NCBI GenBank assembly: GCA_021790385.1 | Contig: JAJYDW010000012.1 | Coordinates: forward strand, 1-64,000 | Reading direction: 5' to 3' | DNA length: 64,000 nt | DNA from: Planctomycetota bacterium | GTDB lineage: Bacteria; Planctomycetota; Phycisphaerae; WQYP01 | Shown here: positions 37,401-59,798 of the stretch, one piece after another | Layout of the letters: each line of letters opens with the position of its first letter | How positions within the stretch are numbered: position 1 is the first letter of the stretch | Program-made: the position numbers and the translations under genes | The notes under the pieces: model-generated | What the model was told of the DNA's origin: nothing | The model's input: the letters and a program-made list of their open reading frames with translations, nothing else | The model's database searches: none

Positions 37401-37807
37401 CGCATCGACGCATATATTTGGATCTGGGCGAGGTTGCGGTCATGGCCCAGCCAACGCTTAATGGTCACGAGCTGGGAATTCTGTGGAAGCCGCCATTTAA
37501 GGTTGACGTTACCGCGGTATTGCAGCCAGGCCGCAATCAACTTCGCGTCCGCGTAACCAATCTGTGGATTAACCGGATGATCGGAGATGAGCAACTACCG
37601 CCGGACTGCGACCAGGCTCCGAATGGTCATTTGCGTAAGTGGCCGCAATGGCTGCTCGATGGCAAGCCCAGCCCGACCGGGCGATTTACATTTACTACCT
37701 GGCGGCTATGGGGTAAAACTGACCCATTGGCGGAATCTGGCTTGATCGGTCCGGTTCAACTAATCTTCGCTGAGACCGCAACCATTTTGAAAGGCAACCT
37801 GAAATGA
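34403..37807 (+). CDS. Tat-exported GH106-type alpha-L-rhamnosidase
   Basis: The 1134-residue protein starts with a twin-arginine signal (MNRRDFVERIGLSAAGLMVL) and TGGAG upstream. Residues ~55-150 carry the GH106 signature: GPWVYWFWLDVNVTRAGITA, VAGVLIMDVDQG, then HINMTNDAGWCGSGGPWVTP and SMQRVV. Later motifs typical of the family include HIDSWETGSQNWTPTF, LRLSIEGYFGEPA and a C-terminal galactose-binding-like sandwich (LDLGEVAVMAQPTLNGHELG, LWKPPFKVDVT). GH106 enzymes hydrolyse alpha-L-rhamnosides, for example in pectin rhamnogalacturonan. The adjacent RhaT symporter and GH78 enzyme support L-rhamnose release. The stop overlaps the next start (ATGA). Confidence 0.88.
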   Translation: MTNMNRRDFVERIGLSAAGLMVLQAGPAVRAASLSLASEAGDGARMAGLFATPPFDCGPWVYWFWLDVNVTRAGITADMEAMKAVGVAGVLIMDVDQGTPPSFNGAKFGDAKWYELFKFACQEAHRLGLHINMTNDAGWCGSGGPWVTPELSMQRVVWSDTAIAGGRKFNDVLPQPQAKLNFYRDIAVLAFPTPAQGYAIGNLKEQTDVNTAYNIFAAATWPTLKPGQEISRKSILNLTRQMDRNGRLTWTVPAGKWTVLRLGHTTTGVDNHPAPAGGLGLETDKLSRKATIFQFNSLMERIIRQIGPLVGKTLVSTHIDSWETGSQNWTPTFAADFKKLRGYDLTPYLPVFAGLVVESLEVSERFLWDVRQTVGDLLVENYAAAMRQVARKHGLRLSIEGYFGEPASDIRYGGQAVEPMSECWSWPRFGAMGSVIEMTSAGHVYGHNIIGQETCTADANEKWQGYPAVVKDICDWTLAEGINRFVFHRYAMQPWTNPHYAPGMSMGPWGLHYERTQTWWYLTKPWHDYVARCCWLLRHGHFVADVCYMQAEGMPRTFSPPSNIPGNPPPRPGYNYDGCPAEVVRTDMEYKAGFLTLPGGMRYRVLVLSNSPTMRPELLKKIKLLVDAGATVIGPQPQSSPSLSNFPHCDSEVQTLAAELWGTKKIITGKTAEEVLSARGIQPDFACDQVMVRWTHRQTADMDIYFVANGEAAATLPYAGRAMLANCAFRISGVAPELWNPETGTMRPAPAYRVEGGRTHIPLVLGPKESVFVVFRNGNAHRPENIITSASHSGKVFLSTDAPAHVVMPKNIRVLQAIYGKPGQPKHLRNVTAIVQKLVAAGHNGFPVVQIAAIGGDPDPYVVKTLDIKYEVSGRIGRVSFQDGGWVWFPIPGGETFRRPALLEMENDGNVRGVFTEAGRYQFALASGRRTTVAIPSVPRPISITGPWRVAFPAGWGAPAEIHLQHLIAWNKHPDAGVRYFSGTAEYRAEFMTPAGLPAPHRRIYLDLGEVAVMAQPTLNGHELGILWKPPFKVDVTAVLQPGRNQLRVRVTNLWINRMIGDEQLPPDCDQAPNGHLRKWPQWLLDGKPSPTGRFTFTTWRLWGKTDPLAESGLIGPVQLIFAETATILKGNLK

Positions 37808-40583: not shown

Positions 40584-43500
40584 TGTTCAGCAGTGCAGTG
40601 GTTTATACACGACGTATATTTTCCAAGTTGTGGCTATTGGTGTTTGTGGCCAGTATGGTTGTCGGTGGAAGATTATATGCAGGAACCATTGCGGCACCGA
40701 TTCATCTGCGATGTGATGGGTCGCACAATCCAGAGGCAATAAATTCCACCGAGCCGTTTTTGAGTTGGGTCGTGCCATGGAAACGTCGAGGAGAGACGCA
40801 AAGTGCCTATCAGCTTTTGATTGCCGGCTCACGGGCGCTGCTGGCTGCCAACAAGGTCAATTTGTTTGACACGGGCAAAGTTTTCAGTTCGCAGTCTGTC
40901 AACGTTCAATACGTGCTCCACGGTACGCCGCCACTGGCGTCCGGGAGGCGTTATTTCTGGAAGGTGCGCGTGTGGAACCAGGCGGGAGTGGAATCTGCCT
41001 GGAGCAAGGTAAACTATTGGCGGGAAGGCTTGTTGTCGCATGGAAATTGGAACAAGGCCCAATGGATCGGTATTCCACGTCCGCGCCAAAGCATGGCTTT
41101 GCATCCGTGTTTCTGGATCTGGTACCCGGAAGGATCGCCAGCCCAGGCTGCCCCGGTCGGTTCGCGCTATTTCCGCAGGATTATTAAACTTCCGGCCCGG
41201 CCGCGGCTGGTTTCGGCAACATGCACCATGACCGCAGATAATGCTTTTGTTATGCGGATCAATGGTCATCGCGCCGCCAGTGGCAGCAATTTTAACACGG
41301 CACCAATTACGCAGGTAACGGAGCTTTTTCATCCCGGGCGCAATGTCGTGGATTTAACGGCGGTGAATCAGGGCCGCACACCCAATCCCGCCGGCCTTAT
41401 CGGCGATCTGCATTTTGTATTTGCGCATGGCAAATCCCTGGACATTCGCACCAATGCACGCTGGCAAGCAGCCCGGCAGCCGAACCGGGGTTGGAAATCA
41501 TCTCTGGTGCTGGGCCGCTATGGCATGGGGCCGTGGGGCCAGGTGGGCGTATCGACGCGCCGGCAATCCGCGGTTTACCTGCGGCACAAATTTACACTGC
41601 GTGCTCCCGTTGAACGAGCCATTGTGTATTTCTGCGGTCTGGGCTTAAGCAAGCTCTATTTTAACGGTCACGCCGCCAGTCACAACCAGCTTTCTCCACC
41701 GTTGAGTTGGTATCCCAAGCGGTGTTATTATGTTGCGTACAATGTAACCAAGCTGTTGCGACCGGGCAGCAACGTCATGGGCGCGATTCTAGGTAATGGT
41801 CGCATGTATGGTATGCCGGGCTACACCATCAACATTCCACCACGGATGATTTTGTTGTTGCGTATCCGCTATGCCGATGGGTCCAAGGCCGTGGTTGTCA
41901 GTAATAATCAATGGAAAGAAACGGAACACGGACCGATCCGGATGAACAATGAATACAATGGTGAAACCTATGACACTCGCATGGAAATGCCCGGCTGGGA
42001 TACCGTGGGTTTTGATGCCGCCGGATGGAAACCTGCCCGATCGGTGCATTCACCGGGTGGACGTCTGGTGGCCGAATGTCAGCCGCCGATTCGGGTGACG
42101 CAGGTGATTCATCCGGTCGCGGTACTGCATGTCGGCAAAGGCCGGTGGATTTTCGACATGGGCCAGAATATGGTGGGCTGGTGTGAGATTCATGTGAATG
42201 GTCCAGCGGGCACAACACTGGTGCTGCGGCACGCGGAGGCGCTGACCCGCGACGGCCATCGCTGGATGCCGGCCCTGGGGCCAGGCCGACGCCTGATTGC
42301 CGCAGAGAAGGCCCACCCTGGCGGACTGGGACTGTACACCGCGAATCTTCGCTCGGCCCAACAAACCGACACGCTGATTCTTAACGGCAAGCCCATCATC
42401 TGGCATCCGATTTTCACCTATCACGGTTTTCGGTATGTGGAATTGATGGGTTATCCGGGTCGGCCGAATCGTTCCACCCTGGAGGGCCAGGAAGTGCACG
42501 ATGAGTTGTCGGCGGCCGGCGGGTTTGCCTGTTCGGACCCGTTGGTGAATCAGATTTATCATAATTGTAAATGGGGAATCCAGGACAACTACCGCAGCAT
42601 TCCGACCGATTGTCCGCAGCGAGATGAACGCCAGGGATGGATGGGGGATCGCAGCGCGGAATCAAAGGGTGAAATGTTCATTTACAATGTTGAGCGATTT
42701 TATGATAAGTGGTTGTGGGATATCCAAGATGGGCAAAAACCCGATGGGGACATCGCCGATGTCAATCCGCCGTATTGGAATATCTACAGCCACGACGTAA
42801 CCTGGCCCGGCACGTTCATCATGGTGGCAGACCATCTTTACGTGCAATATGGGCAAACTGCTCCTATCCGGGAGCATTATGCGGCCATGGTTCGGTGGGT
42901 CGATTATCAGATGAAAATGGTTCACCAGGGGATTGATTCGAATGGCGGCTTCGGCGACTGGGATTCGCCGCCGCATGCCCATTCCACCAACATTGGCTCG
43001 CACGATCCCAACCGCAGCACGCCAGGCCCGCTGCTGGCTACGGCCAGCATGTATAAGTATCTGCGTATTATGGCCAGGTTTGCCGGGTTATTGCATAAAC
43101 CAGCCGATCAGCGGCGCTGGTTGGCTGATGCCAGGAACCTGTACGCGGGCTTCCAGACCCTGTGGGATGCCAAGGGTGGTTTCTATGGCAATGGTTCTGA
43201 TACTTCCTGCCTTCTCCCGCTGGCGGTGGGAATCATTCCAGCCGCCCGGCAGGCGGCAGTGGAACATCGTCTGGTCTGGCTGATTCACCAGCATCAACAT
43301 GGGCATTTGTATTGCGGCCTTATTGGCATGCAATGGGCATTTGCGGCGTTAAACTGCATTCACGAAACACCTCTGGCCTGGACATGGCTTAATAAGACTA
43401 CGTATCCAAGTTACGGTTACATGATCAAACACGGTGCCACCACCCTATGGGAAAACTGGAACGGCAACACTGCCGGCTCGGGTATGAATTCGATGAATCA

Positions 43501-43891
43501 TGTGATGCTTATCGGCGATATGGTGAGCTGGTTGTATCAGGATTTGGGGGGAATCCGGGCTGATGTCGCAGATCCTGGCTTCAAGCGAATCATCATGTGC
43601 CCGCATCTGGAGAAGAATCTCACGTGGTTTAAGTGCTTTCACCGCTCGCCTTATGGCACCATTGTGAGCAACTGGAAAATAACCCGCAATCATCAGTTCC
43701 ACTGGCACGTGGAAATTCCCGCCAATTCCAGTGCGCTGGTGGAAATTCCAACCAGGTCCGCGGCGGCGGTGCGTTTGAATTCCAAGGCACTGCCGAAGAA
43801 AAGCTGGATCAAATACGTGCGGATGGCCAGAGGTCGTGCGATATACCGGGTTCAATCCGGAACATATAATTTCAGCGCACCGTTGCCCTGA
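40583..43891 (+). CDS. GH78-family alpha-L-rhamnosidase
   Basis: From the ATG at 40583 the product is 1102 residues with an export signal (LWLLVFVASMVVGG). The order matches GH78: an N-terminal fibronectin-like domain (PIHLRCDGSHNPEAINST, FWKVRVWNQAGVESAW), two beta-sandwich modules (LGLSKLYFNGHAASHNQLSP; WIFDMGQNMVGWCEIHV) and an (alpha/alpha)6 catalytic domain. The general-acid motif is TDCPQRDERQGWMGD near residue 674, and a terminal beta-sandwich follows. It hydrolyses terminal alpha-L-rhamnosyl residues in the periplasm or outside the cell, supplying RhaT. The GTG start at 40568 in the ORF track is unlikely because it lies inside rhaT. Confidence 0.93.
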   Translation: MFSSAVVYTRRIFSKLWLLVFVASMVVGGRLYAGTIAAPIHLRCDGSHNPEAINSTEPFLSWVVPWKRRGETQSAYQLLIAGSRALLAANKVNLFDTGKVFSSQSVNVQYVLHGTPPLASGRRYFWKVRVWNQAGVESAWSKVNYWREGLLSHGNWNKAQWIGIPRPRQSMALHPCFWIWYPEGSPAQAAPVGSRYFRRIIKLPARPRLVSATCTMTADNAFVMRINGHRAASGSNFNTAPITQVTELFHPGRNVVDLTAVNQGRTPNPAGLIGDLHFVFAHGKSLDIRTNARWQAARQPNRGWKSSLVLGRYGMGPWGQVGVSTRRQSAVYLRHKFTLRAPVERAIVYFCGLGLSKLYFNGHAASHNQLSPPLSWYPKRCYYVAYNVTKLLRPGSNVMGAILGNGRMYGMPGYTINIPPRMILLLRIRYADGSKAVVVSNNQWKETEHGPIRMNNEYNGETYDTRMEMPGWDTVGFDAAGWKPARSVHSPGGRLVAECQPPIRVTQVIHPVAVLHVGKGRWIFDMGQNMVGWCEIHVNGPAGTTLVLRHAEALTRDGHRWMPALGPGRRLIAAEKAHPGGLGLYTANLRSAQQTDTLILNGKPIIWHPIFTYHGFRYVELMGYPGRPNRSTLEGQEVHDELSAAGGFACSDPLVNQIYHNCKWGIQDNYRSIPTDCPQRDERQGWMGDRSAESKGEMFIYNVERFYDKWLWDIQDGQKPDGDIADVNPPYWNIYSHDVTWPGTFIMVADHLYVQYGQTAPIREHYAAMVRWVDYQMKMVHQGIDSNGGFGDWDSPPHAHSTNIGSHDPNRSTPGPLLATASMYKYLRIMARFAGLLHKPADQRRWLADARNLYAGFQTLWDAKGGFYGNGSDTSCLLPLAVGIIPAARQAAVEHRLVWLIHQHQHGHLYCGLIGMQWAFAALNCIHETPLAWTWLNKTTYPSYGYMIKHGATTLWENWNGNTAGSGMNSMNHVMLIGDMVSWLYQDLGGIRADVADPGFKRIIMCPHLEKNLTWFKCFHRSPYGTIVSNWKITRNHQFHWHVEIPANSSALVEIPTRSAAAVRLNSKALPKKSWIKYVRMARGRAIYRVQSGTYNFSAPLP

Positions 43892-43893
43892 TT

Positions 43894-46074
43894 TTGAGCG
43901 CCGCAAATGTGGTTCACAACCGGAGCACGCCAGTGGTGATGATTACAAAATGGTGTGGATGCCCACCGCGCCGGTTCCTGCGGTGTCTGATGCTTGTCCT
44001 GACACTCTGGTTGGTGTCCCATAAGCAAGCCTTGTCGGCATCAGCACAATTTCCAGCCCCTTCACGTCCATGGTGTCTGGGACATAGTCGGTACTTTGCC
44101 ATTTGCGTCATCGACAGGGCTACGGGACGTGGCATTCCTCTGGTACGTCTGCAAACCGACAACGCAATCCGCTTCTATACCGACAGCAATGGGATTGTCG
44201 CTTTTTACGAACCGGGCCTTATGCATCGGCACGTTTTCTTTTCCATCAAAAGCCCGGGCTACCGCTATCCCAAAAATGGCTTTGGGTTTCGCGGTATTTC
44301 GCTGCGGATTCATCCGGGCGGACATACCACCTTGCGTATGCGGCGGGTGGAGATTGCCCAGCGGCTTTACCGTATAACGGGGGCGGGAATTTACCGCGAC
44401 AGCTTGTTGGTGGGTGCGGCAATCCCGATCCGGCAGCCGGTACTGAACGGATCGGTATTCGGCAGTGATGGAGCCATGCCCACCGTGTTTAAGGGCAAAA
44501 TTTACTGGTTCTGGGGTGATACGCTGGAGCCGCAGTACCCTCTCGGCAATTTTGCGGTAACCGGAGCCACATCAATGCTGCCTGGAAAGGGCGGGTTGAA
44601 TCCACAAGTGGGCATCAATTTGCATTATTTTCTGGATCGTCATGGTCGACCCGCGCCCATGACCGCCATTCCCGGCCCCGGACCCACCTGGATTGCCGCG
44701 CCCACGGTGCTGCCCGATCGTCACGGGCGATCCGCCCTGTATGCCACTTTCATGAAAGTAGGCAAGCATTTTGATCTTTATCGGCGGGGACTTCTCAAGT
44801 TCAACACATACAAACATCAGTTTCAAACGGTGACGACATTTTCATCCGCCTGGCCTCTGCTCCAGCATGGTGCCCCACCGGACGGGCACACCTTTATCAC
44901 CCAACGCCATGGTCAACGCTGGATTTACTTTGCAAATCCTTTGCCGCTGATCCGCGTTCCGGCTCTGGCCAGCGCCTTGGCCTCCATGGACGACTATCAG
45001 GCCTTTACCTGCCTGCAACCAGGTAGCAATGCGCAACATCCGCGTTTTAATCTCGGCCAGAATGGTGCCCTTCGCTGGCGCTGGCAAACAAACACTGGAC
45101 CAGTGAATCCGTGGACATTCGACCGGTGGAACCAACAGGGCAAAGTTCACCTGTACATTGCCCCGATACGGGATGTAACCACCGGTAAGCCGGTAATTAT
45201 TCATGCCGGTTGCGTGAATTGGAATCCGTACCTGAATCGGTGGCTGCTGATCGGCGAAAGCGCTAACGCTTTGCAGGCAACCATTCAAAAGAAAATGATC
45301 AACGGCAAACCGTGGGTATGCACAGCCAACATTCACCTTAAACGCATCGGCAACAAGGGCTGGATGGTGGTCAACAACGGCAGTACCAGTTCGCTCGGTG
45401 ATATCTATGCCGCCGTCGGCGATACACCGCTGGGGCCTTGGGTGTATGCCCAACGGGTGGTTAATTTTCCCCGGATGAGCTTTTATAATCCGAGCGAAGA
45501 TTGGTTTTTCAATCAGCACCGGAGTCGGATAGTATTTTTTGAAGCAACTTATTGTAATATGTTCAGTTCTTCGCGTACACCTACGCCCCGCTACAACTAC
45601 AATCAGTTGATGTACTCTCTGAACTTGGCTGACACCCGGTTGCTCCTGCCAGTAGCGCTGTATGGCACCGGCCCGGCGAATCCCGCCGTGGCTCTTCGGC
45701 CAGCAAACAGGCTTCGCCATGCACGTGTTGGCCGGTACATTGCCTTTTTTGCCTTATCCCAGACCCGCCCCGGTTGGCAAGCTGTTTACGTAGCATCGTC
45801 GGCGAGCGCCGGTTCTTGGCTTACACCGCGCGCACCCGGCAGCCATGCCCAGCCGCTGTTTTACGCGTACCCGATAAACGCGAGCCATGCGCCCAAGGGC
45901 CTGGTCGCCCTTGAACGTCTGGTTGGCCCGGACGGAAAGTATCTCTATACCACAAAAAGCAGGTTAAAAGTTCCCGGCTACCGGCATAGCGGCAAACCGT
46001 TCTGCCGGGTATGGCCGGCGGGATGGTTCGCGGCTTTGCCTTATGCGGTGGGAAATCCGGCAGAGAATCACTAA
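43894..46074 (+). CDS. Secreted five-bladed beta-propeller protein (DUF4185/GH43-like)
   Basis: The 726-residue product has a hydrophobic export segment (CLMLVLTLWLVSHKQAL) and a short beta domain with DRATGRGIPLVRLQT. A propeller-like region follows, with GSVFGSDGAMPTVFKGKIYW, FWGDTLEP, TWIAAPTVLPD and WFFNQHRSRIVFFEATYCN. Similar 'D-G-x-x-P-x-x-w-g-k-x-Y-w-F-w-G-D' repeats occur in GH43/GH32-type and DUF4185 propellers, so glycan binding or hydrolysis is likely. The start is doubtful: TTG at 43894 lies 2 nt after the GH78 stop, and the ATG at 43939 gives a more normal signal peptide. It is the last gene of the rhamnose operon. Confidence 0.65.
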   Translation: MSAANVVHNRSTPVVMITKWCGCPPRRFLRCLMLVLTLWLVSHKQALSASAQFPAPSRPWCLGHSRYFAICVIDRATGRGIPLVRLQTDNAIRFYTDSNGIVAFYEPGLMHRHVFFSIKSPGYRYPKNGFGFRGISLRIHPGGHTTLRMRRVEIAQRLYRITGAGIYRDSLLVGAAIPIRQPVLNGSVFGSDGAMPTVFKGKIYWFWGDTLEPQYPLGNFAVTGATSMLPGKGGLNPQVGINLHYFLDRHGRPAPMTAIPGPGPTWIAAPTVLPDRHGRSALYATFMKVGKHFDLYRRGLLKFNTYKHQFQTVTTFSSAWPLLQHGAPPDGHTFITQRHGQRWIYFANPLPLIRVPALASALASMDDYQAFTCLQPGSNAQHPRFNLGQNGALRWRWQTNTGPVNPWTFDRWNQQGKVHLYIAPIRDVTTGKPVIIHAGCVNWNPYLNRWLLIGESANALQATIQKKMINGKPWVCTANIHLKRIGNKGWMVVNNGSTSSLGDIYAAVGDTPLGPWVYAQRVVNFPRMSFYNPSEDWFFNQHRSRIVFFEATYCNMFSSSRTPTPRYNYNQLMYSLNLADTRLLLPVALYGTGPANPAVALRPANRLRHARVGRYIAFFALSQTRPGWQAVYVASSASAGSWLTPRAPGSHAQPLFYAYPINASHAPKGLVALERLVGPDGKYLYTTKSRLKVPGYRHSGKPFCRVWPAGWFAALPYAVGNPAENH

Positions 46075-46224: not shown

Positions 46225-46338
46225 TTGCAATGCAATTTACGATCTGTTATGATATGGCTTATCGAAGGTTGCAGAGTTGTGTTGATCCTGCGGCATGGTT
46301 TCAAGTGTTTTGGGCCACAGGCCCGGAAGGAGTTACGT
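46225..46338 (+). promoter_or_regulatory. PEP-CTERM promoter and conserved leader, copy B
   Basis: TTGCAA (46225) and TATGAT (46248) are 17 nt apart. The leader shares GTTGTGTTGATCCTG, GTTTCAAGTGTTTTGGGCC and GGCCCGGAAGGAGTT with copies A and C, and forms a CCTGCGG...CCACAGG helix with one mismatch. The -35 overlaps a TTGCAATGCAA palindrome, a possible operator. Confidence 0.75.
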
Positions 46339-47229
46339 ATGTTTATGGGTAACAGGAAATGTATGGTTGTGCTCATGGGGCTGGCGGCATCGGCGTTGGC
46401 GCTCGCCCCGCCGATCGCGCCACCGGCTGCGGCCTCGATCACGCTGCCGGTCTTGCCGTCTGGACTGATGGTGAATTACGAGTCCGCCAATTACGACGCC
46501 AGCACCGGTGTTTGGACTGACACCTCCGGCAACGCCAACAACGCCAGCGTGGCCAATGCTGCTACCTATAACCAACTTTCCTCAAACGGTACGCCCACGC
46601 TGGTTACCAATGCCACACCGAACGGGTCGTCGGCGGTCCAATTCACATTCTCGGCGACCGCGCCGGGGACGCTCGGCCAATCGCTTGGCCTGACGACACC
46701 GCTGAGCTCCAGCATAGGCTTCACGATTTTCGCCTATATATTGCCGTCATCCGCGATGGCCACGGCCAATGGCGGATTTGTGGGAGGGCAGGGAGGCTCG
46801 CTTGAATACCGTCTCGCGAATACGTTCCATCAGGACCTGCTTGTGGAGGACACTGCAGATTTGGGCATGTCCAGCACCGCCCTGTCCGACGCCAGTTGGA
46901 ACAATATCAACGTCACCGCCAGCAGTGTTGGGGGTGGCGGTGGATATTTCCGCTTCAACGGAAGTGCAGATGGCACCACCACCGCGCCGAGTGGCGCCTT
47001 TAACCCGATCCAGGCGATAGGCGACGGTAATGTCAATGGTACCGAATACTTCGCGGGGGAGATCGCGGGGTTGCAGATTTACAGCGGCGAATTGACCGGT
47101 GCCCAGCGAACGACCGTGGAGACTTATTTTACCGATCTCTACGCCATCCCCGAACCCGCCACGCTGGGCCTGCTGGCGGCTATGGGTGTCGGACTGCTTT
47201 TGCTGGGTCGTAAGCGCCCACAAGCGTGA
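46339..47229 (+). CDS. PEP-CTERM-anchored LamG/concanavalin-like protein
   Basis: The 296-residue product starts MFMGNRKCMVVLMGLAASAL (signal peptide), with CGGAAGGAG upstream of the ATG. A single LamG/ConA-like jelly-roll follows, with GLMVNYESANYDASTGVWTD, the hallmark GVWTDTSGNANNA strand, ASWNNINVTASS and EIAGLQIYSGELTGAQRT. The C-terminal signal PEPATLGLLAAMGVGLLLLG ends in RKRPQA. This design is common in planctomycete surface proteins that bind carbohydrates. The first seven residues are identical to the IS3-disrupted copy C. A pseudopilin gene follows. Confidence 0.87.
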   Translation: MFMGNRKCMVVLMGLAASALALAPPIAPPAAASITLPVLPSGLMVNYESANYDASTGVWTDTSGNANNASVANAATYNQLSSNGTPTLVTNATPNGSSAVQFTFSATAPGTLGQSLGLTTPLSSSIGFTIFAYILPSSAMATANGGFVGGQGGSLEYRLANTFHQDLLVEDTADLGMSSTALSDASWNNINVTASSVGGGGGYFRFNGSADGTTTAPSGAFNPIQAIGDGNVNGTEYFAGEIAGLQIYSGELTGAQRTTVETYFTDLYAIPEPATLGLLAAMGVGLLLLGRKRPQA

Positions 47230-47356: not shown

Positions 47357-48433
47357 ATGAATGTGTTGTACCCTTTACGATGTCGCGGTGAGGATAGCCA
47401 GGGGCGTGATGCGTATTTACGTATCAGGAAGTGCTGCTGTCTTCCAACACGACGTAGCCGTAGCTGCTTTCGCCAGCCCCTACACGGTTTTACTCTCGTC
47501 GAGCTATTGGTGGTCATCTCCATCATCGCCTTGCTCATTTCTCTGCTGTTGCCGGCTTTGGCCTCCGCCCGGCAAAGTGCCCAGCAGATCGTTTGCGCAA
47601 GCAATATGCGCCAGCTGGGCCAGGCGCTGCACGAGTATTTCGTCACGGACAACGGTTTTTTTCCGCTCGACGGCCTGCTGTTTCCGCATAAGGCCAGCTT
47701 TCCGCCGTACAGCAACGCCAAATCTAGTACCGACGTCCAGACAGCAACATTCTGGAACAACCAGCAGGATTGGCGCGTGCAGGCGGGTGTTCTCTACAAC
47801 CAGCTCAATGGCTCGCTGGCCCAGATGAGTACTGCTACGCCCTACACCATTTCTCCCACCTCCACCACCCCCGCACCGGGCAGCCCGCCACCGCTCAATC
47901 CGCAATATGCCAAAATCTTCATGTGCCCGTCCGATATGGGCAACCGCAATTCCGCTACCGCTTTAACCATGGGGCCAAGTGCCCTTCCTGGCTGCGGCGC
48001 AATTAGCGTAGGGCCATCCACCACCGGTGGTTATTGGAGTTATTCGGTCAATTCTCTGGTCAACTCGCAGTCCATCACGCTGGCCACTATTTATCCACCG
48101 ACGACATCCGGCGGTGTTCCTTCCACACCGTGGAGCTATCCACTGCGCGCCGACGCCATTCAAAATAACGCGTTCGCAGTGTTTATTGAGGAGTCCGCCC
48201 TTTTATCCAATTTCAATGATGAAGTATTGGATCCTCCCGCCTTCAATCTGGGTGATCATTTAACTTCCCGCCATAACGGTCAGGGCAATATCGGCTTCCT
48301 GGATGGCAGCGTGCAAAGCGTGCCCGCGGTGGAATTTAACAATGCCCCGTCGGTTACCGGTGGTGGCACTTATTCTTTGCAATCCGCTATGCAATACCCC
48401 ATTACTCGATGGTTTATTCCGGTGTTGCCGTAA
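47357..48433 (+). CDS. Prepilin-like H-X9-DG protein (pseudopilin 2)
   Basis: A 358-residue protein with the prepilin motif [20 protein letters not shown], then [20 protein letters not shown] and a C-terminal domain with [20 protein letters not shown], where the H and DG are spaced as in the H-X9-DG family. The leader before the cleavage glycine is long (~45 residues) and rich in Cys and Arg ([20 protein letters not shown]). The true start could be internal, but the ATG at 47357 has GGTGG upstream and the third pseudopilin also has a long leader. It lies between a PEP-CTERM gene and a lipoprotein gene. Confidence 0.85.
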
Positions 48434-48676
48434 AGATTCCTTCCATTCCATTCGCGGCAAAAAAATAATGTGACCGTTCACGGGCCATAAATTTGCAAAA
48501 AAATCACCAAAATGATGTGGAACCCAGAGTTAATGAGGCGTAAAAAACATACAAAATCAAGATATTAAAAGTTGAAAAGTGGCATTTTTATATTTGTTGT
48601 ACCACTTTTATTCGTACCCGGAAAGACTGGAAAATTTCGCAATATCAGAAACTTATTGTTTTTTGGAGATACCCTG

Positions 48677-49408
48677 ATGAAGTTGTTACACCGTTTTCCC
48701 TTGCTGGCTGCGGCTATTGCCTTGGTGGCATTGGCCGGTTGTCGTGCGCCGCTGGCAGTCAATCGTTCTCTGGTTCCACAACACAGCGCCTTTCAGGACA
48801 AAAACCTGCTGGGGGTCTGGCGATTGCAACATCATCATGGTGCCGGCAAACCGGTTCAAACCATCTTGTTTGTTTATCCCTTGGGTACAAAGAGGTATTT
48901 GCTCACCTGCTGCAACTTCAGGGCGGCGGCCACGTCCGATGGGCAGCCGAAACTTCAAGCAGTGCTTGCCGGCACGTTTATCGGCAGCTTAACGAGAATC
49001 CATGGTCGGCTGTGGATGAGTTGCCGCTCCATGGATCCACGCCTGATTTATTCACCCGCCATGGAAGCGTGGTGGAAAACACATGCGCCGGCTGGGCAAC
49101 CCACGAAGTATGCCGCGACCCTGAAAAAGATGGGGATGGCGGCGGGGCGGGCTACTGGAATGGCACGGGTCTTTTACCTGGTTAAACTGCAAAAGGTGTT
49201 GCCAAATAGGCTGGAGGTGTACCCGCTGTTGGTGCCCCAAAACGGTCAACATGCCGTTTTTAACGTACCTACGGGCATCCTCCATAACCGGAAAAAACTC
49301 CGCGTTTTTCTCAATTCCCACACGCTGGCGCACTTACTGCCCCGGCAGCCGTTGGTGCTGGACCGCTTGCCTTGGGCGCAGGCCGCTCCTTATATGCCGG
49401 CGCAATAA
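48677..49408 (+). CDS. Lipoprotein of a three-member paralogous family (member 1)
   Basis: From the ATG at 48677 (GGAG 8 nt upstream) the 243-residue product has a lipoprotein signal with lipobox LAGC (VALAGCRAPLA). The mature part contains LLGVWRLQHHHG, LFVYPLGTKRYLLTC and later GMARVFYLVKLQKVLPNRLEV. The same order of motifs (L-x-G-x-W, Y-P-x-x-x-R-x-Y-L, G-x-A-x-x-Y-x-x-x-x-L/M) appears in the lipoproteins at 58214 and 58991. The family is not one I can name. It is anchored in the envelope and lies beside a pseudopilin gene. Confidence 0.75.
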   Translation: MKLLHRFPLLAAAIALVALAGCRAPLAVNRSLVPQHSAFQDKNLLGVWRLQHHHGAGKPVQTILFVYPLGTKRYLLTCCNFRAAATSDGQPKLQAVLAGTFIGSLTRIHGRLWMSCRSMDPRLIYSPAMEAWWKTHAPAGQPTKYAATLKKMGMAAGRATGMARVFYLVKLQKVLPNRLEVYPLLVPQNGQHAVFNVPTGILHNRKKLRVFLNSHTLAHLLPRQPLVLDRLPWAQAAPYMPAQ

Positions 49409-50331: not shown

Positions 50332-53300
50332 TTAACGCGAGGTAACTTGATAGCTGCCGGGGGTATCAATTCTTATATACCTTCGCCGCCCCATGGTGTA
50401 AATCATCCTTGGCCGTTTTCCATTGAGACGGATATGCAGGCCGCGAACACCAACTGTTGCGGCCACGCCAGGTGGCAGCCGCAATGATACCACACGTTCC
50501 GTCGCAGTCTTTTCGGCTTTCACCTCAATATTGCCGCGGGGTGTCGGTACCCGGCCGGCAACCCAGGCCAGATTCCCCAGATGCGGTATAACGGTCGCCT
50601 TGGCAAAACCTGCTGCGGTCGGTTGCACCCCCAGCACGTACTCGGTAAGCCAGGTCGTAACCCCACAAGACCAGCCATGGCACAAACTTACAAAATATCC
50701 AGGACGATTATCCGCCTGCAAATAGCGGTGAAAATGTTTTTTCGGCCAGCGTGGATCATAAGCCTCCCAAAACGTCGTAGCACCTTCATGGATCATACCT
50801 CCCCAGTAGGAACGGATGAATCGCAGAGCCTGCATGGTGCGTCCTAAATTCCCCAGCGATTGAAGCACAAAGTAGTTATAATAAGGTGTGGTCACCTGCC
50901 GCCAGGCCGGACAACCGGGGCCAAGAATGGTTTTGGCAATAGCCTGCCGTTGTATTCTATCGGCGACGCCGGCATAAATTGCCATGGCATTGACCTGCCG
51001 CAGGCGGGTAAACGTATGAGTTTTGGCATTTGGCAGATAACGGCGGGCCGCGGTTACAAGCCGCCTATACCAATGCAGGTATATTTCGGCTCCGGCCTTG
51101 TCCTGGATTGCTTGAAGCAGAAATGCCGCCCGCTGTACGGCCAGGCAGGTGTATAAGTCTACGGCGACACGTTCCTGGGGCGTGTCGCCGGAATTCAGAT
51201 GGGGAGCCCAATCGGTAAAACACCAATGATTCCACTTGTTGGTAAAAATGTTACGATGGTCAAATCCACGTTTCATATAACGCAGCATGGATAACAGCAT
51301 CCGGCGCTGCCGACGAATATATTGTATATCTCCTGTGTGCATGTAAAGATCATACAATGCACAGATCCATGCATTCGAATATCCTACGATTCCGTTGATG
51401 TAATTTTCCGGCAGGGCCGCCGGTGGCTTATTCCCTTGAGCATTACGCCTCAGGGCGCTCATCGTTCGCTCGAGCAGAAATTTATTAAGAAAAACATTTT
51501 CAATCACACTGCCCTCAATCTGCAGATCGCCCATCCACATTCCACGGTCACGTTTAGGTGCATCATAGATGTGATTTTGCATGCACAGGTGTACAGTGTA
51601 CGCTCCTGTATACCATATACGGGTCAACAGGGGACTGGAGCAGGCAAAAGTCCCGCGGTACTTAACGGGACTGTATTGAAAATCGAGTTGCAGGCTATTG
51701 ATATGGATTGGTACTGTCCCGAGGAAACGAATGGCGGCATAGCGAAATCCAAAACTTTGCGGAACCGTCGCGGCGATGGTATGTGTGGACAAATGCAGAG
51801 TTTGTATGTCGGCCCAGGGACCATCACCGGCCTCAACCCCCGGATACAGAGCCTCGCCAGCGGACTCTCCCATATGAACCAGCAGCGTCCCATGGTTGCC
51901 GCGAAACTTAAGCTGGCCGGTTACCTCCCGGCCAAAATCCAGCAGCAATTCGGGGCTGCCTGCGGCTGATGCCGGCCAACCTGCCTGCACCGCCCTGCCA
52001 ATATTGCGGTCAACATGCGCAGCACTCCGGATCGTAAGTTGAAAATTGTGTATCGTGCCGCCGTCCGCATTATCACCTATGAACACAGCGGAAATTTTAT
52101 GCAGATCCGCCGGCGTCAAGGACCCGGCGGTGCAGGTGCGGTTTGACAAGCCGCGGCCATCCCAGAAGCTCACCCTGCCGTTGCCTGAGTTGATGCTGAT
52201 TTGAAACCTCTGGGTCACACGGTTACCAGCCTTGGCATAGGTTGTCCGGCCGTGGTGCGTGCCGCCACCCCAAAAAGTTTGTGCCGACACTTGCTGCTTA
52301 ACCAGTTTGTACAGCACCCACGCCATAGAGGACGGATTGTTGGGATTGGCTGTGGTCTTGCCGCCAAAGCCCAAGGCCAGCCATGGTCCGGCACTGCTGG
52401 CATGCGGCACAAGCGTGGCTGAGAGAGTATAGATGTGATCCGGCAATATCGTAAGGGGCAAATAGGCGCTGCCATTGACAGTGATGGCCACGGCGACATC
52501 CGAACCACTTGCCAAAAATTGCCCAGGTGCGGCATTCCAGGTGGCGTTTGTGGTATTAATGGGTGCCGGGGCGGTTCCGTTAATGTCTTCCGGATGAGCA
52601 ACGCTGCCTCGCTCAAAATCATCATGGTAAACCAGTTTTTCCGGCACCTCATGCGGCCGCGGATGCACCAGCAGTGCGGGCTGCCTGCCGCGAAGCAGCG
52701 TTGTTATTCCGGCAAAGGCCCGTCTGTCGTGAACCACGTAGACGCGACACGGCCGAAGATAAAGATGCGCCAACCGCGGGTTGGTCTTTAATCTCTGAAA
52801 CCGTGTAACATCATACGTAGGATCCAGGGCTGTAGGAGGTTGGAGAAACACACTTATACCGTTTTTTTCCGTCGGCGAACCATAAGCCGGCCCCAGCATT
52901 TCTATTTTGCTGAACTCCGGCATGAAAGAGAAATGGGAGATGGTTTGGACCGCTACCGCCGCGCCGCTACCGCCGGTAAAGCCGACCCAGGCTTTCGAAG
53001 CCGGCGCCCAAAAGGCAAGGCGGGTTTGCCACGTGGCACCGGTTTGCATATCCTTAAGCGCCACGTGCAGCATCAGGCCGTTAAAATTAAGTTGCACGCG
53101 TATCCGATGCCCCGAACCCAGGTGTACCGCGCCGGTGGGTATGAAAGCTCCAATATGACCGCAGGCCGGCCCCGCGTAGAAGCCGCTGCCTTTTCCGAGG
53201 ATGTTAAATGCCACCGCCGCGCTGTCGCTAATTCCGCCGTAACCTAATTCTGCACCATTACCGCCGAGAGCGCGGCCTCCGCGTGGATCGCGCTCCAGCA

Positions 53301-56300
53301 CAAAAGCGAACCCATCGCCTCCTGCCACACCGGTCTGATAGGTAAATTGGGCACGAAACGCACTGCTGCGCCAGGGACTTGCCGAGAAAGCAGAAGTCGC
53401 TTCATCAGGCTTGCCGTTGGTTAAGGTAAGAACAGTGCAGGCTTTATTAAATCCCACCGCTTTAGCTGTGCTGTTGACTGCCCCAAAATGGGAAAACAAG
53501 CCGAGTGTGGCTGGCTTTGCGGGGCGACTTGACATGGATGGCGGCCTGTCATCCGGAGCGCTACCCCAATGCCGGTCAGGCTTGTCTCCAAGGGCAACGA
53601 ACATTGACCCTCCGCGGACGATGGCTGCTTGTTTAATCCAGCAATGGGGCGACGGCGTGCCGTCGAGGGTAACAGATTGAATGTATTGATTCCTGGCTGA
53701 AGCCTTGGGAGAGTTGATTGTAAAGGTTTTGCCTCGGTATGGTGATCGCAAGTGAATAACAACATGGCGAAAAACGGGTGAGCAGAGTTCGAAAGCCGGC
53801 CGCCCCGGATCTGCCGGGTACATGCCCATCATGCTGAATATTACCCAGGAGGACATTGCGCCGCAGTCATCATTGCCGGCAAGTCCCGTGGGAGTAACGT
53901 TGTAGTCTTGCTGAACCAGGCGGCGAACCAGTTCCTGTGTTTTCCATGGCTGTCTGCAATAGTCATAAAGAAACGGCGCTTCGATATCGGGTTCATTGTA
54001 AGCATTGTAATAGCGTCCGCTCCACTCAAGGGTGATATAATGGAAGAAGCGGTTCAAACGCTGTATAAAACGATGTTGCCCCATCCGTTGAATTAGCCCG
54101 GCGATGTCCTGCGGCACGTACCACTGGTATTCCCACGCAGGACCTTCCACATAAGGGTGTGCGGCAAAGGTGAACGGCCGTGCCGCCGGATTAAAAGGCG
54201 AAGCCCAGCGGCCATTTTTCAGCCGGGGGCGCATAAACTTTGTGGTCGGATCGAAAAGATTTATCCAATACATGGCGCGGTGCCGCAGACGCCGGGCATC
54301 CGCGGTTCTGCCCAAATCCCTGGCTACCCTTGCCAGCGCCGAATAGGCGTAGCAGCCCTCCTCGGTTTTAGAGACCGAGCCGCCAATTCCACTGTCGGTG
54401 GGAATATAATGAAGTTTGTTCATATAAGCGATGCCTGTTTCACCAGTATAGGCTTTCCCGGGCGGAGCAGGCTCCGTAGCATCCTTAAACATTGCGCGGT
54501 AGGCCGCTTTCATGTTGAAATCATGCAGGCCATATTCCCACGCCGTACATATTACCGTGGTCAGCGGACTTCCTACCATAATATTGGTATATTTGTTGGC
54601 TTCCGGCCAACGCGGCATCCACCCTCCCTGTCGCACGTCGCGCACCAGCGACTGGCACATCTGCTCCATGCGCCCGGGCGCAACCAGCGCCAACAATGGT
54701 ACTTCGTCACGATAGATGTCCCATCCGGAATAATCTGTGTATTGTATCCCCCCGGGGCTAAGATCATGGATGCGGTTATCAAATCCGATATAGCGACCAT
54801 TTACATCCGAAAAAATACTCGGCATCAGCAGGCTGTGATACAACGCCGTGTAAAAAATCATCTTCTGCGCCGCAGTACCACCGTGCACGCTGATACGATG
54901 AAGAATGTGGTTCCACGCCTGCATCGCAGCTTGGCGTACCTGGTTGAATGACTTTCCGCCCAGTTCCGCGGCCAGATTTTTGCGAGCGTCATCTATACTC
55001 ACATAGGAAATGCCTATTTTTACGGTAATGATGCGTGGTCCTTGCGGCGACCAGCTTACGTATGCACCTACATGCGGTTGTCCCACACCGGACTGCATCG
55101 CCTGACCAGAGCCACTTGTTCTTTCTTTATTCGCCTTCCATGTTCCATAACGCCAAAACGGCGAACTGAACTGCATCACAAAATAGACCGTGTAATATGG
55201 CGAGCCTTGTGCCATACAGCGGCTGGTGACCAAGCCTTCCACTTCGCGCGGACCTGCTATCCGAACCTGCGCTGCACGTGTACGGGTCATCGTATGGCTG
55301 ATGGGAATAAGCAGGTTGGCGCGTTTTCCGGATGGAAACGTAAAGCGTGCCATGCTCGCTCGCGTGGCCGATGTTAATTCCACATTTACATTCGGTGTGA
55401 GCAGCCGCACCTGATAATAACCAACTTGTGCGGATTCCTGCCGATGGCTGAAACGCGATGTATAATGTTGTGTGTTCACGGATCCGGTGGTAGCGGTAAA
55501 AAATACATCCCCTTCGTCATTCATCCCCACGCCGGACATATGGAGCATGCTGAAACCGAGTATTCTGGAATCCCGATAATAGTATCCCATGGACCGCGGT
55601 CGTGTATCCGGACTAATCTGCACCATACCAAATGGCATCACCGGGCCGGGGAATTCTGCACCCGTGTTGGCGGTACCAATGAAGGGATTCACAAATGCTG
55701 TCAGTGGCGCTCGCCCGGACTTTCCTGGCATAATTTCCGGGAGGCCCAGCATCCGGCGCAGTTGTGGTAGCGTCAATGTTGCTACGCGCCGCGGCTGGAG
55801 CGATACAAAGGTAAAATGGCTGATTTTCTGTACCGCGGTGGCTGCACCGCTCGCCCCGGTAAAGCCTACGTACGCCCGGCGGTTTTCCGGTGCAAAGGGT
55901 GACGTCATCCGGTAAATTGCGTGCGTTTTCATATCTGCAAGAGTAACACGCAAAATCACCCCATTGAAAATCGCCGTTACGCGTATCAAATCGCCGCTGG
56001 ACAGATTGACCGGAGAGACGGGGGTGAAGGGGCCGGTCTGACCATTCATACCCAGAAGAGAAATGCCGTTCGAAAGAACATCCAACTCCAGGGCGTAACT
56101 GCCATTGATAGAATTATTTTGACCGCCCAACCCCAAATTTCCGCCGTTGCCTCCCAACGCCCGGACTCCACGCGGATCTCGTTGCAGCACAAGGGCCACC
56201 CCGTCGCCACCGCCGCCTGACGGAACTTTAGCTTGGTAGGTGAAAGCCGCCCGGAACGCGCCAACGCGTTGCCTGGTCGGAAAAAAGCAACTCGTCGCCT

Positions 56301-56481
56301 CGTTACGCTTGCCATCCGTAAGGATCAGTATAGTTTTGGACTTTTTCAATTTCGAGGATGTGCCGGCGGTATTCACTGCCGCAAAGCCCTCGAATCCCTG
56401 AATATTACCACGCCCCACCGCCGAGCAGGCCAGTAATACAATCAACAGAATCGCGAGGAATACCGTTCTATGGTTTCTCAT
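50332..56481 (-). CDS. Giant secreted GH92-GH78 fusion enzyme with two L-type-lectin-like modules
   Basis: The 2049-residue product has a signal peptide (VFLAILLIVLLACSAVGRG). An L-type-lectin-like domain spans ~25-235 (GGDGVALVLQRDPRGVRALG). A GH92 alpha-mannosidase-type catalytic region spans ~262-960, with VNPFIGTANTGAEFPGPVMP, YTDYSGWDIYRDE and the catalytic/metal motif GLAGNDDCGAMSSWVIFSMM near 870. A second lectin-like domain spans ~990-1195, then a beta-sandwich (~1290-1490). The GH78-type rhamnosidase region (~1515-2045) has LLDFGREVTGQLKF, YDAPKRDRGMWMGDLQIEGS near 1640 and SLCHGWSCGVTTWLTEYVLG near 1937. One chain could remove mannose and rhamnose from the same glycan. The frame is uninterrupted, so the fusion looks genuine. 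It is the last gene of a minus-strand operon. Confidence 0.88.
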   Translation of the reverse strand: MRNHRTVFLAILLIVLLACSAVGRGNIQGFEGFAAVNTAGTSSKLKKSKTILILTDGKRNEATSCFFPTRQRVGAFRAAFTYQAKVPSGGGGDGVALVLQRDPRGVRALGGNGGNLGLGGQNNSINGSYALELDVLSNGISLLGMNGQTGPFTPVSPVNLSSGDLIRVTAIFNGVILRVTLADMKTHAIYRMTSPFAPENRRAYVGFTGASGAATAVQKISHFTFVSLQPRRVATLTLPQLRRMLGLPEIMPGKSGRAPLTAFVNPFIGTANTGAEFPGPVMPFGMVQISPDTRPRSMGYYYRDSRILGFSMLHMSGVGMNDEGDVFFTATTGSVNTQHYTSRFSHRQESAQVGYYQVRLLTPNVNVELTSATRASMARFTFPSGKRANLLIPISHTMTRTRAAQVRIAGPREVEGLVTSRCMAQGSPYYTVYFVMQFSSPFWRYGTWKANKERTSGSGQAMQSGVGQPHVGAYVSWSPQGPRIITVKIGISYVSIDDARKNLAAELGGKSFNQVRQAAMQAWNHILHRISVHGGTAAQKMIFYTALYHSLLMPSIFSDVNGRYIGFDNRIHDLSPGGIQYTDYSGWDIYRDEVPLLALVAPGRMEQMCQSLVRDVRQGGWMPRWPEANKYTNIMVGSPLTTVICTAWEYGLHDFNMKAAYRAMFKDATEPAPPGKAYTGETGIAYMNKLHYIPTDSGIGGSVSKTEEGCYAYSALARVARDLGRTADARRLRHRAMYWINLFDPTTKFMRPRLKNGRWASPFNPAARPFTFAAHPYVEGPAWEYQWYVPQDIAGLIQRMGQHRFIQRLNRFFHYITLEWSGRYYNAYNEPDIEAPFLYDYCRQPWKTQELVRRLVQQDYNVTPTGLAGNDDCGAMSSWVIFSMMGMYPADPGRPAFELCSPVFRHVVIHLRSPYRGKTFTINSPKASARNQYIQSVTLDGTPSPHCWIKQAAIVRGGSMFVALGDKPDRHWGSAPDDRPPSMSSRPAKPATLGLFSHFGAVNSTAKAVGFNKACTVLTLTNGKPDEATSAFSASPWRSSAFRAQFTYQTGVAGGDGFAFVLERDPRGGRALGGNGAELGYGGISDSAAVAFNILGKGSGFYAGPACGHIGAFIPTGAVHLGSGHRIRVQLNFNGLMLHVALKDMQTGATWQTRLAFWAPASKAWVGFTGGSGAAVAVQTISHFSFMPEFSKIEMLGPAYGSPTEKNGISVFLQPPTALDPTYDVTRFQRLKTNPRLAHLYLRPCRVYVVHDRRAFAGITTLLRGRQPALLVHPRPHEVPEKLVYHDDFERGSVAHPEDINGTAPAPINTTNATWNAAPGQFLASGSDVAVAITVNGSAYLPLTILPDHIYTLSATLVPHASSAGPWLALGFGGKTTANPNNPSSMAWVLYKLVKQQVSAQTFWGGGTHHGRTTYAKAGNRVTQRFQISINSGNGRVSFWDGRGLSNRTCTAGSLTPADLHKISAVFIGDNADGGTIHNFQLTIRSAAHVDRNIGRAVQAGWPASAAGSPELLLDFGREVTGQLKFRGNHGTLLVHMGESAGEALYPGVEAGDGPWADIQTLHLSTHTIAATVPQSFGFRYAAIRFLGTVPIHINSLQLDFQYSPVKYRGTFACSSPLLTRIWYTGAYTVHLCMQNHIYDAPKRDRGMWMGDLQIEGSVIENVFLNKFLLERTMSALRRNAQGNKPPAALPENYINGIVGYSNAWICALYDLYMHTGDIQYIRRQRRMLLSMLRYMKRGFDHRNIFTNKWNHWCFTDWAPHLNSGDTPQERVAVDLYTCLAVQRAAFLLQAIQDKAGAEIYLHWYRRLVTAARRYLPNAKTHTFTRLRQVNAMAIYAGVADRIQRQAIAKTILGPGCPAWRQVTTPYYNYFVLQSLGNLGRTMQALRFIRSYWGGMIHEGATTFWEAYDPRWPKKHFHRYLQADNRPGYFVSLCHGWSCGVTTWLTEYVLGVQPTAAGFAKATVIPHLGNLAWVAGRVPTPRGNIEVKAEKTATERVVSLRLPPGVAATVGVRGLHIRLNGKRPRMIYTMGRRRYIRIDTPGSYQVTSR

Positions 56482-56544: not shown

Positions 56545-57468
56545 CTATTCCCAGAAATCGAAAATGCTAAGCGTGTAATTGCAGTGCAGTTGGGATGGAC
56601 CTTTCCATTCCACCGAACCATCGCTGTATAAAATATTGGATCCCGCCGCACTACCAGAGTCCACATGGTTGGAAATGGGCTCTGGCCACTGCGAAAAGAA
56701 CCAGTTGCCTCCGTAACTTGCCGTGAGATCGCTACCCATAATACCGTGCGGATTGTGCAAACCTTGCTGTGTAAACAATGCTGACGGATCAAGATAATTT
56801 ATATTTGAGGTTACCTGTGTCCATGGATTGGTCACAGTACCAGTGGTTGCGCCCGAGTTGCCTTGCGCCCGGCCCACCCAATAACAGTAGCCAAGGTAAA
56901 CATTGGTCCACCACGTTATATTGTTATCGGCGGTTTGGGCCAGATTCGGCTGCCATACCGGGGCATACGTGGGCAGATAATTACTTGGATTGGCCGGGCC
57001 GAAAAAACCCGCCTGCGGACAATAAAAGAATGTCGGATTTGTAATGATACCGTCGGTAAATAACAGCCCAAAGCCCCACGGAGTCGGAATTTCCGCGGAC
57101 TCTCCCGTATTACGTGAAAGATGTCCAAAAGGCCAATCGCCAGGATCCGTAGGCGGATAGGCTTGATATTCTTCCACGTAAATTTGCACACCCTGCCCCA
57201 ACTCACGCAAATTCGAGGCACAGATCATTTCTTCCGCGTCATTATGGGCGGAGGAGAGCGCCGGCAAAAGCAACGCAATGAGCAACGCAATAATAAAAAT
57301 CACCACCAAAAGTTCCACGAGGGTAAAACCGTATAGGGGCCGTTGGAAACAATTACGCTTCCGCGACGGCATGCCGGGATCGGACTTCTGCCAACTGCTG
57401 CCACAAAGAGACGTCTTAGACCGGAAGTTGCCGGCGTTTACTAACCAGTCGTAACCTGTGGTTTTCAT
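56545..57468 (-). CDS. Prepilin-like H-X9-DG protein (pseudopilin 3)
   Basis: The ATG at 57468 (AAGGGTAGATTT upstream) gives 307 residues, with a leader of ~54 residues before the cleavage motif [40 protein letters not shown] follows, and the C-terminal NILYSDGSVEWKGPSQLHC is closely similar in layout to pseudopilin 1. An internal ATG (MPSRKRNCFQRPLYG) would give a conventional short leader. It starts the translational pair with the giant enzyme, which begins 63 nt downstream. Confidence 0.87.
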   Translation of the reverse strand: MKTTGYDWLVNAGNFRSKTSLCGSSWQKSDPGMPSRKRNCFQRPLYGFTLVELLVVIFIIALLIALLLPALSSAHNDAEEMICASNLRELGQGVQIYVEEYQAYPPTDPGDWPFGHLSRNTGESAEIPTPWGFGLLFTDGIITNPTFFYCPQAGFFGPANPSNYLPTYAPVWQPNLAQTADNNITWWTNVYLGYCYWVGRAQGNSGATTGTVTNPWTQVTSNINYLDPSALFTQQGLHNPHGIMGSDLTASYGGNWFFSQWPEPISNHVDSGSAAGSNILYSDGSVEWKGPSQLHCNYTLSIFDFWE

Positions 57469-57531
57469 AAATCTACCCTTACTATCTTTGCCGTGATTCC
57501 AAATGGCCGCAGTCTCCATCTGTGGCACTGA

Positions 57532-58213: not shown

Positions 58214-58906
58214 TTAATACCCCATATAAAAGCCTTCGGGCAGCGCCTGGGGCGCGGAAATCCGATGAAACACCCATGGTTTTTTTGCGGCAAGTTTTGC
58301 GCCGGCGGGGCTGGAAATAAACTTCACCAGAGCCGCTGGCGAATCCATCGCCTTCCCCGCAATGGAGATATTCTTTGCCAAATGACCACTCATATAAGGC
58401 GTGATCGCAATTTTATCAGGGGTGATGGAATCCATCCGGACCACAAAATAAACATGCGCCATACCAGTTCTTCTCGCCGATGCGATTAAGGATTGCGTAA
58501 ACTGCTTCTGCCCATCTTTACCCGCTTGCAGATCTTTTTTCAGCGTAGCTATATTCCCGCGTTGATCGATGAGGTTAGGCATAAATACCTGGCAGGATAA
58601 ATATTGATGTGCATCCACCGTGGTCAACCACGCCTCAATCAATCCGCAGCCAATTTGCTGCTGCCTTGCCCCAAAACGCACCGCCTCCACCAGATAACTG
58701 CGAGGACCTCGCGGGTAGATAGCCAACGTGGTCTGCACGCCCTCTTTATCCTTGCGGCTCCACACACCCAACAGAGTGCGATCTGGTGTGGCCGTCGCCA
58801 TCGAACTTAGAGGCTGGTTAAAATACTCTGGGCCAGCGCACCCGCCGATAATTGCTGTTAATAGAACAGCCATTACACCCATAAAAACCAATCGAATTGT
58901 TGACAT
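58214..58906 (-). CDS. Lipoprotein of the paralogous family (member 2)
   Basis: I start at the ATG at 58906 because AAGGAGTG lies just upstream (230 residues). The signal peptide ends in a lipobox (LTAIIGGC). Mature motifs are LLGVWSRKDKEGVQTTLAIY, GPRSYLVEAVRFG, IGCGLIEAWLTT and PNLIDQRGNIATLKKDLQAG, with a C-terminal MDSITPDKIAITPYM. It is clearly paralogous to the next gene at 58991-59674 and more distantly to 48677-49408. The function is unknown. Confidence 0.75.
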   Translation of the reverse strand: MSTIRLVFMGVMAVLLTAIIGGCAGPEYFNQPLSSMATATPDRTLLGVWSRKDKEGVQTTLAIYPRGPRSYLVEAVRFGARQQQIGCGLIEAWLTTVDAHQYLSCQVFMPNLIDQRGNIATLKKDLQAGKDGQKQFTQSLIASARRTGMAHVYFVVRMDSITPDKIAITPYMSGHLAKNISIAGKAMDSPAALVKFISSPAGAKLAAKKPWVFHRISAPQALPEGFYMGY

Positions 58907-58990
58907 TGTCAGCACTCCTTTATTTTCCATCCGGTATTTCAAAAAAAACAGTTCGTGTTTCAAAATGTCGATGCCGACCGACACCTACCG

Positions 58991-59674
58991 TTATGGACTG
59001 GTGTAAAATGCGACCGGCAGGGCCGATTTTGCGGTGGCCCGCTCAAATACCCGCGACTGGCTTGCGGCCAGTTGCCGTCCGGCGGGACTGCGAATAAACG
59101 CTACCAACGCCTTGCGCGAACTCACTATGCCTTCCGCCATCGTTAGCGATCCGAGAGCGTTTTTGCCCAGCATGGGCGTAATGACAATCCGATTCGGACT
59201 CATCGAATCCAGTCGCAAGGCGAAATATGTTCGAGCCAGGCCGGTCTCTCGCGCTGAATCAATCATCGTCCTTACCAGGGAACGCCGCGCGCCGCCGTCG
59301 GCGGTCAGGCTTTTTTGCAGAGTGGCAATGTTTTCCGGCTGGTCGGTAAGATTGGGCAACATCCATTGGCAAAATAAATAGCGATGCCCACCTACTCGCT
59401 GCAGTTGTGCCGTCGCCAACCCGCAGCCGATCAGTGGCCGTCTGGTGAAAAATGGCACTGCCTGCACCAGATAAGATCGTCTCCGCAGAGGATAAACCAC
59501 GGCCGTTAGATTAACACCCTTCTTGTGGCTGTGCCAATTCCAGATCCCCACCAAAGCCAGATTTGGTTTCGCACCGACCGTCGGGTGGTGCCCGGCGCAG
59601 CCGGCACACGACATGAGCAAAGTCCCGAAGATGAGTGGAATTACGCTGGGCACTCGAAGCTGAGCCATGGTCAT
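58991..59674 (-). CDS. Lipoprotein of the paralogous family (member 3)
   Basis: The ATG at 59674 is preceded by AAAAGGAG (227 residues). The signal peptide contains two candidate lipobox cysteines (LLMSC and CAGC). The mature part has LALVGIWNWHSHKKGVNLTA, RRRSYLVQAVPF, IGCGLATAQL, PNLTDQPENIATLQKSLTA and LDSMSPNRIVITPML, matching member 2 along nearly its whole length. It is the first gene of the minus-strand operon leading to the giant GH92-GH78 enzyme. Confidence 0.75.
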   Translation of the reverse strand: MTMAQLRVPSVIPLIFGTLLMSCAGCAGHHPTVGAKPNLALVGIWNWHSHKKGVNLTAVVYPLRRRSYLVQAVPFFTRRPLIGCGLATAQLQRVGGHRYLFCQWMLPNLTDQPENIATLQKSLTADGGARRSLVRTMIDSARETGLARTYFALRLDSMSPNRIVITPMLGKNALGSLTMAEGIVSSRKALVAFIRSPAGRQLAASQSRVFERATAKSALPVAFYTSP

Positions 59675-59798
59675 GTTAAAACTCCTTTTCTTTCTTACAA
59701 CCGTTACCCGGCAAATTACCGGTTCCGCCAACACCGCCGCTTCTGATTTCAGCAGCAAACGGCACCGCCACCCTCTCACCTTCTCCTTGATGGCGGTA

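Follow-up and report, generated by a model that had tools for sequence, protein, structure and literature searches.

A GH92-GH78 fusion protein with lectin-like modules encoded beside rhamnose genes in a Planctomycetota genome

Gene content around the fusion gene

The window, by which we mean the whole stretch of 64,000 nucleotides analysed here, carries at 31-46 kb a series of plus-strand genes that we take to be a rhamnose-glycan locus. Among them are the genome's only GH106 alpha-L-rhamnosidase (34403-37807), an arabinose/fucose-isomerase-like protein (37804-39246), a homologue of the L-rhamnose-proton symporter RhaT (39270-40583) and a stand-alone classical GH78 with the motif DCPQRDER (40568-43891). 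The first gene of the series encodes a 1048-aa protein (31152-34298) with a weak, sub-cut-off match to a GH78-like barrel in the genome search (21 bits) and no match in Pfam, NCBIfam and PDB sequence searches at the thresholds used; it may represent a distant rhamnosidase-like family. RhaT and GH78 are read in different frames and share 16 bases; in genome G002, which has a related locus, the two are read as one ORF of 1490 aa (L027:3106-7578, minus strand), which may be either a genuine fusion or the effect of a frameshift in the draft. Next to the GH78 gene is that of a 726-aa protein (43894-46074), which is 85.5% conserved in G002 beside RhaT-GH78; neither this protein nor another of 730 aa (19252-21444) finds a match in Pfam, NCBIfam or PDB. 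The RhaT-GH78-726aa block (39270-46074, compared with L027) is oriented oppositely relative to GH92 in the window and in G002, which suggests an inversion beside the fusion gene.

The fusion gene itself lies on the strand opposite to the rhamnose genes, with about 4.3 kb of unrelated genes in between, and from this closeness we infer that it belongs to the rhamnose locus. It is flanked by a PEP-CTERM LamG-like protein and two prepilin-type (N-methyl) proteins (46225-47229, 47357-48433 and 56545-57528). In addition, three related small lipoprotein-like proteins without Pfam match are found nearby (48572-49408, 58214-58984 and 58991-59779), and an apparent relative of them is located at 8994-9728 in L025, downstream of the fusion in genome G011.

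Extent and architecture of the fusion

The first-pass annotation had described one uninterrupted chain of 2049 residues carrying both GH92 and GH78, without giving its strand. Our analysis confirms this chain as a complete ORF on the minus strand (50332-56481), with no N, no internal stop, and AGGAGA directly 5' of the ATG at 56481. GC and GC3 are uniform along the whole ORF, and scans for promoters and terminators gave no signal beyond the level of shuffled sequence. The protein was also proposed to be secreted, in agreement with a signal peptide predicted by eye at residues 1-24 (MRNHRTVFLAILLIVLLACSAVGR; 56410-56481), in which the residues LLAC could alternatively be a lipobox.

From the N-terminus onward, and all on the minus strand, the signal peptide is followed by lectin-like module 1, related to L-type lectins (residues ~27-250; 55732-56403), the GH92 part (~256-985; 53527-55716) and lectin-like module 2 (~992-1190; 52912-53508). 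According to alignments, the GH78 region then starts with residues 1191-1282 (52636-52911), where the galactose-binding-like N domain of its relatives is deleted, is interrupted within its beta-sandwich by a third, concanavalin-like module (~1283-1488; 52018-52635), and ends with the catalytic part (~1503-2049; 50335-51975). The lectin-like domains noticed earlier on the two sides of GH92 are real. The first pass had overlooked the third concanavalin-like module in GH78, as well as the missing N-terminal domain of GH78, the rhamnose locus, the non-alpha-1,2 type of the GH92 and the signs of gene exchange.

The two active centres

Pfam and NCBIfam place both enzymes in one chain, each above its cut-off. 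The two Pfam domains of the GH92 half, GH92 at residues 499-965 (E 1.3e-157) and GH92N at 263-492 (E 2.8e-64), have 526 and 218 bits against cut-offs of 24.6 and 34.5, and TIGR01180 of NCBIfam has 576 bits against 250. In the GH78 half, Bac_rhamnosid6H (1609-1949, E 1.7e-25) and Bac_rhamnosid_C (1951-2012, E 2.2e-8) are found with 90.5 and 34.2 bits against cut-offs of 24.5 and 22.1. With a pLDDT of 48, the structure model of the GH78 half was of too low a quality to be used.

For the GH92 half we aligned the protein ourselves onto the functional residues named for BT3130 and BT3990 (PMC5930347, PMC12858847). The general acid E779 aligns with E535 of BT3130 and E533 of BT3990, the general base D872, in the motif N870-D871-D872, aligns with D644 of BT3990, and D588, W625 and M635 of the -1 subsite align with D353, W390 and M400 of BT3130. 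The features of alpha-1,2-type GH92 enzymes, namely the DED motif and the His-Glu of the 580-loop, are absent: NDD stands at 870-872, and the loop before NEP is shorter. Judged from these two differences, alpha-1,2 activity is unlikely; any mannose linkage named for the enzyme is a guess, because the +1 subsite of GH92 is not predictable from sequence. The best matches of solved structure are BT3130 (6F8Z) and B035DRAFT_03340 (7ZGM), with E-values of 8e-115 and 2e-113, which share the NDD motif and the conserved -1 subsite residues with the fusion. They are however single-enzyme proteins with a longer loop before NEP, whereas the fusion adds a lectin-like module before GH92 and a GH78 after it. 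The five-domain NnGH92 of Neobacillus novalis (7NSN) is similar in that its GH92 is flanked on either side by accessory beta-sandwich domains, with one accessory domain inserted in another domain, and unlike the fusion it has CBM32 domains, alpha-1,2 specificity and a single enzyme. Deletions showed that its extra domains are important for integrity rather than for affinity (PMC10167667).

For the GH78 half, the putative acid D1645 and the putative base E1906 align with D222 and E486 of KoRha, and W1649, D1652, Y1701, W1758, Y1920 and H1935 align with its residues W226, D229, Y284, W341, Y498 and H508 (PMC4690510). These eight residues, which comprise the catalytic acid and base and the rhamnose contacts of KoRha/BT1001, are conserved in the fusion, and the putative acid of BT1001 is an Asp as well (PMC4690510). 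Besides this Asp and the rhamnose-binding residues, the fusion shares the (alpha/alpha)6 barrel family with BT1001 (3CIH) and KoRha (4XHC), and differs in the concanavalin-like insert in its sandwich, in the GH92 upstream and in lacking the N-terminal beta-domain, a domain that is not essential, KoRha being without it as well. The motifs of both active centres reported in the first pass are borne out by these alignments, and an absence of catalytic residues, which had been named as a possible objection, is not what we find. Catalytic decay of the window's protein is rejected, all mapped GH92 and GH78 residues being intact.

The three accessory modules

Lectin-like modules 1 and 2 share about 48% sequence identity. 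On the whole fusion, the L-type lectin match in Pfam covers two stretches with 54 bits, below the cut-off of 78, and the isolated modules score 37 and 43 bits of PF18483 against the same curated cut-off. Alone, module 1 has E 3.1e-9 to PF18483 and E 8.4e-6 to Lectin_legB, both sub-cut-off, and module 2 has E 6.6e-11 to PF18483. Since the scores stay below the cut-off, L-type-lectin-like is a fair label for them, rather than L-type lectin. L-type lectins are marked by a GDG loop and by the metal-site residues E-x-D. GDG is seen in both modules, and the E-x-D position reads ELD in module 1 and AFN in module 2. In view of the sub-cut-off scores, and of module 2 being without the E-x-D of module 1, glycan binding by the modules is putative.

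The third module comprises about 205 residues starting with VYHDDFERG, which interrupt the GH78 beta-sandwich in an alignment against G011 and stand-alone relatives. In G011 'PYLAHLQLVPVRINIIHGRRAFEGVQTLLKSGDCRLRVRPA' leads nearly directly into 'PPEMLLDFGREV', and the stand-alone relatives are alike. By comparison with G011, L031, L033 and others, the galactose-binding-like N-terminal beta-domain of GH78, of about 150 residues and present in most relatives, is gone from the window's fusion. A Pfam search with the isolated third module (residues 1283-1488) gave no match. Its structure model (pLDDT 75, pTM 0.80) found 218 PDB matches at E<=1e-3, with TM mostly 0.3-0.58, to galectin-, L-type-lectin- and glucanase-like folds, so that the modelled module resembles, at the level of fold only, a concanavalin-like beta-sandwich of lectin/LamG type. 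Its stand-alone homologues in the family are secreted proteins of mostly ~270-310 aa, and at least one of them has PEP-CTERM, a protein encoded immediately upstream of the G011 fusion. The G011 fusion has a homologue of this module between GH92 and GH78, the place taken by lectin-like module 2 in the window, and module 2 is missing from it in the alignment.

Occurrence of the fusion

The same GH92-GH78 fusion is found in two further genomes of the family: as one ORF of 2045 aa in G011, from another genus, and split by two contig ends in G018, from the genus of G011. It is thus present in the genera g1 and g8. The family comprises 28 genomes, and the others among them encode lectin-GH92 (~1000 aa) and GH78 (mostly ~810-870 aa) as separate ORFs on different contigs, in accordance with the earlier statement that the two families usually occur as separate proteins, which holds for nearly all relatives. 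A lectin-like module joined to GH92 is a common architecture in this Planctomycetota family, with GH78 not attached; likewise, the NCBIfam family NF035929 'lectin' matches the fusion at 522 bits, under its cut-off of 800, and its proteins are without GH78. Among 397 genomes of the class, the GH92 search gave only these three matching frames longer than 1400 aa. The GH78 search in 392 genomes of the phylum, a sample that drew no other genome of the family, gave no other matching frame longer than 1000 aa. A contig scan covered two GH92 peptide patterns, with Planctomycetota MAGs as the nearest named records; given these samples and this narrow scan, further fusions may exist elsewhere. The open-access papers searched describe no GH92-GH78 fusion; the fusion is a new combination of known component families.

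An assembly or sequencing error joining two genes had been raised as an objection to the fusion, and the source genome is indeed a draft in 106 contigs, with relatives whose named records are mostly MAGs. Against such an artefact, the same fusion occurs in a separate assembly of the other genus (L025/L059) as one ORF, with the third genome carrying it over split contigs; moreover, reading frame and composition are continuous, and one module is nested inside GH78. We therefore regard a false join as extremely improbable.

Evolution of the fusion gene

In the GH78 tree the fusions group together in a single clade with support of 100/99, which makes two independent fusions less likely. In the GH92 tree, a stand-alone GH92 of G002 groups with that of the window (83/84), with the G011/G018 pair adjacent, and this placement requires two changes of the fused/unfused label. 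The collapse of an old GH92-GH78 operon is unsupported, as the stand-alone copies of the family sit on different contigs. The dN/dS values between G011 and G018 are 0.14 for GH92 and 0.17 for GH78, and those between the window and G011, with synonymous sites near saturation, are 0.15 and 0.10. Both halves are under purifying selection.

In G002 the neighbouring genes are very close to those of the window (GntR regulator 96%, GxGYxYP 89.5% and lipoproteins 94-97% identical), but the GH92 at the matching locus is only 65% identical and is without this GH78. At synonymous sites GH92 diverges by about 1.8, against 0.1-0.4 in the three neighbours tested. The simplest reading of this difference suggests a gene exchange at this locus, either in the lineage of the window or in that of G002. 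As a whole, the fusion provides a clear case of modules entering and leaving a two-enzyme chain, including insertion within another domain. A GH92 of G006 (L092:297-4097) is extended differently at its C-terminus, apparently by a beta-sandwich region and further sequence, with no GH78 seen; the GH92s of the family seem to recruit varied C-terminal modules.

Proposed function

Our preferred reading, with a probability of roughly 60%, is that the protein is a secreted two-headed exo-glycosidase with both sites active, releasing mannose and rhamnose close together from a heteroglycan. The GH92 half would be a Ca2+-dependent, inverting alpha-mannosidase of the non-alpha-1,2 (NDD) type, and the GH78 half an inverting alpha-L-rhamnosidase of the BT1001/KoRha type. 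The three concanavalin-like modules would keep the enzyme on the glycan or surface, and the protein would act alongside the rhamnose locus with GH106, GH78 and RhaT. Its substrate would be a heteroglycan, most likely a microbial or algal exopolysaccharide, from which terminal alpha-mannose and alpha-L-rhamnose are trimmed by hydrolyses in close proximity. The two activities, the glycan binding of the modules, the shared substrate and the gain from proximity are all what we infer here. A substrate with both sugars, as already proposed in the first pass, is plausible, and its rhamnose half is supported by the neighbouring rhamnose locus. The genome has two GH92 and no GH76, so that yeast alpha-mannan is a disfavoured substrate.

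Those members of GH92 and GH78 that have been characterised are exo-acting and inverting, have pocket-type sites, and release one terminal sugar. The processive strategy suggested at first is unsupported for this reason, and proximity is the reasonable form of that processive or proximity-based idea. The two domains might also be active on different glycans, the fusion only co-secreting and co-anchoring independent exo-enzymes without synergy. This would agree with the separate ORFs on different contigs elsewhere in the family, which give no sign of an obligate pair, with the related G002 locus having GH92 without this GH78, and with the free reshuffling of the modules between the halves; two genera nevertheless keep the fusion, with both halves under purifying selection, and we consider independent action unlikely, though to be taken seriously. 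More speculative, and rather doubtful at present, is the idea that the two sites alternate on one mannose-rhamnose heteroglycan lacking any described enzyme, each exposing the substrate of the other, and that whole copies of the gene pass from species to species while its binding modules are swapped. If the two-headed enzyme uses both sites on one glycan, the fusion points to a pair of linkages that co-occur in nature, and it could serve as a tool for finding and cleaving heteroglycans of mannose and rhamnose; the general view of glycan breakdown is unchanged by it.

That one catalytic half is inactive and acts as a binding domain appears improbable. The window's GH78 is without the usual N-terminal domain, and a DDF-GH78 protein of G002 reads KRAPDMW in place of the KRDRGMW of the fusion, with the putative acid Asp lost. 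In the window protein, G011 and G018, however, all mapped residues are intact, and by analogy with KoRha, a GH78 active as a two-domain enzyme without extra domains (PMC4690510), the enzyme may well tolerate being without its N-terminal domain. The G002 protein (L094:1261-4446, also L049) stands alone as a DDF-module-GH78 chain and, with its putative catalytic acid missing, is perhaps an inactive GH78.
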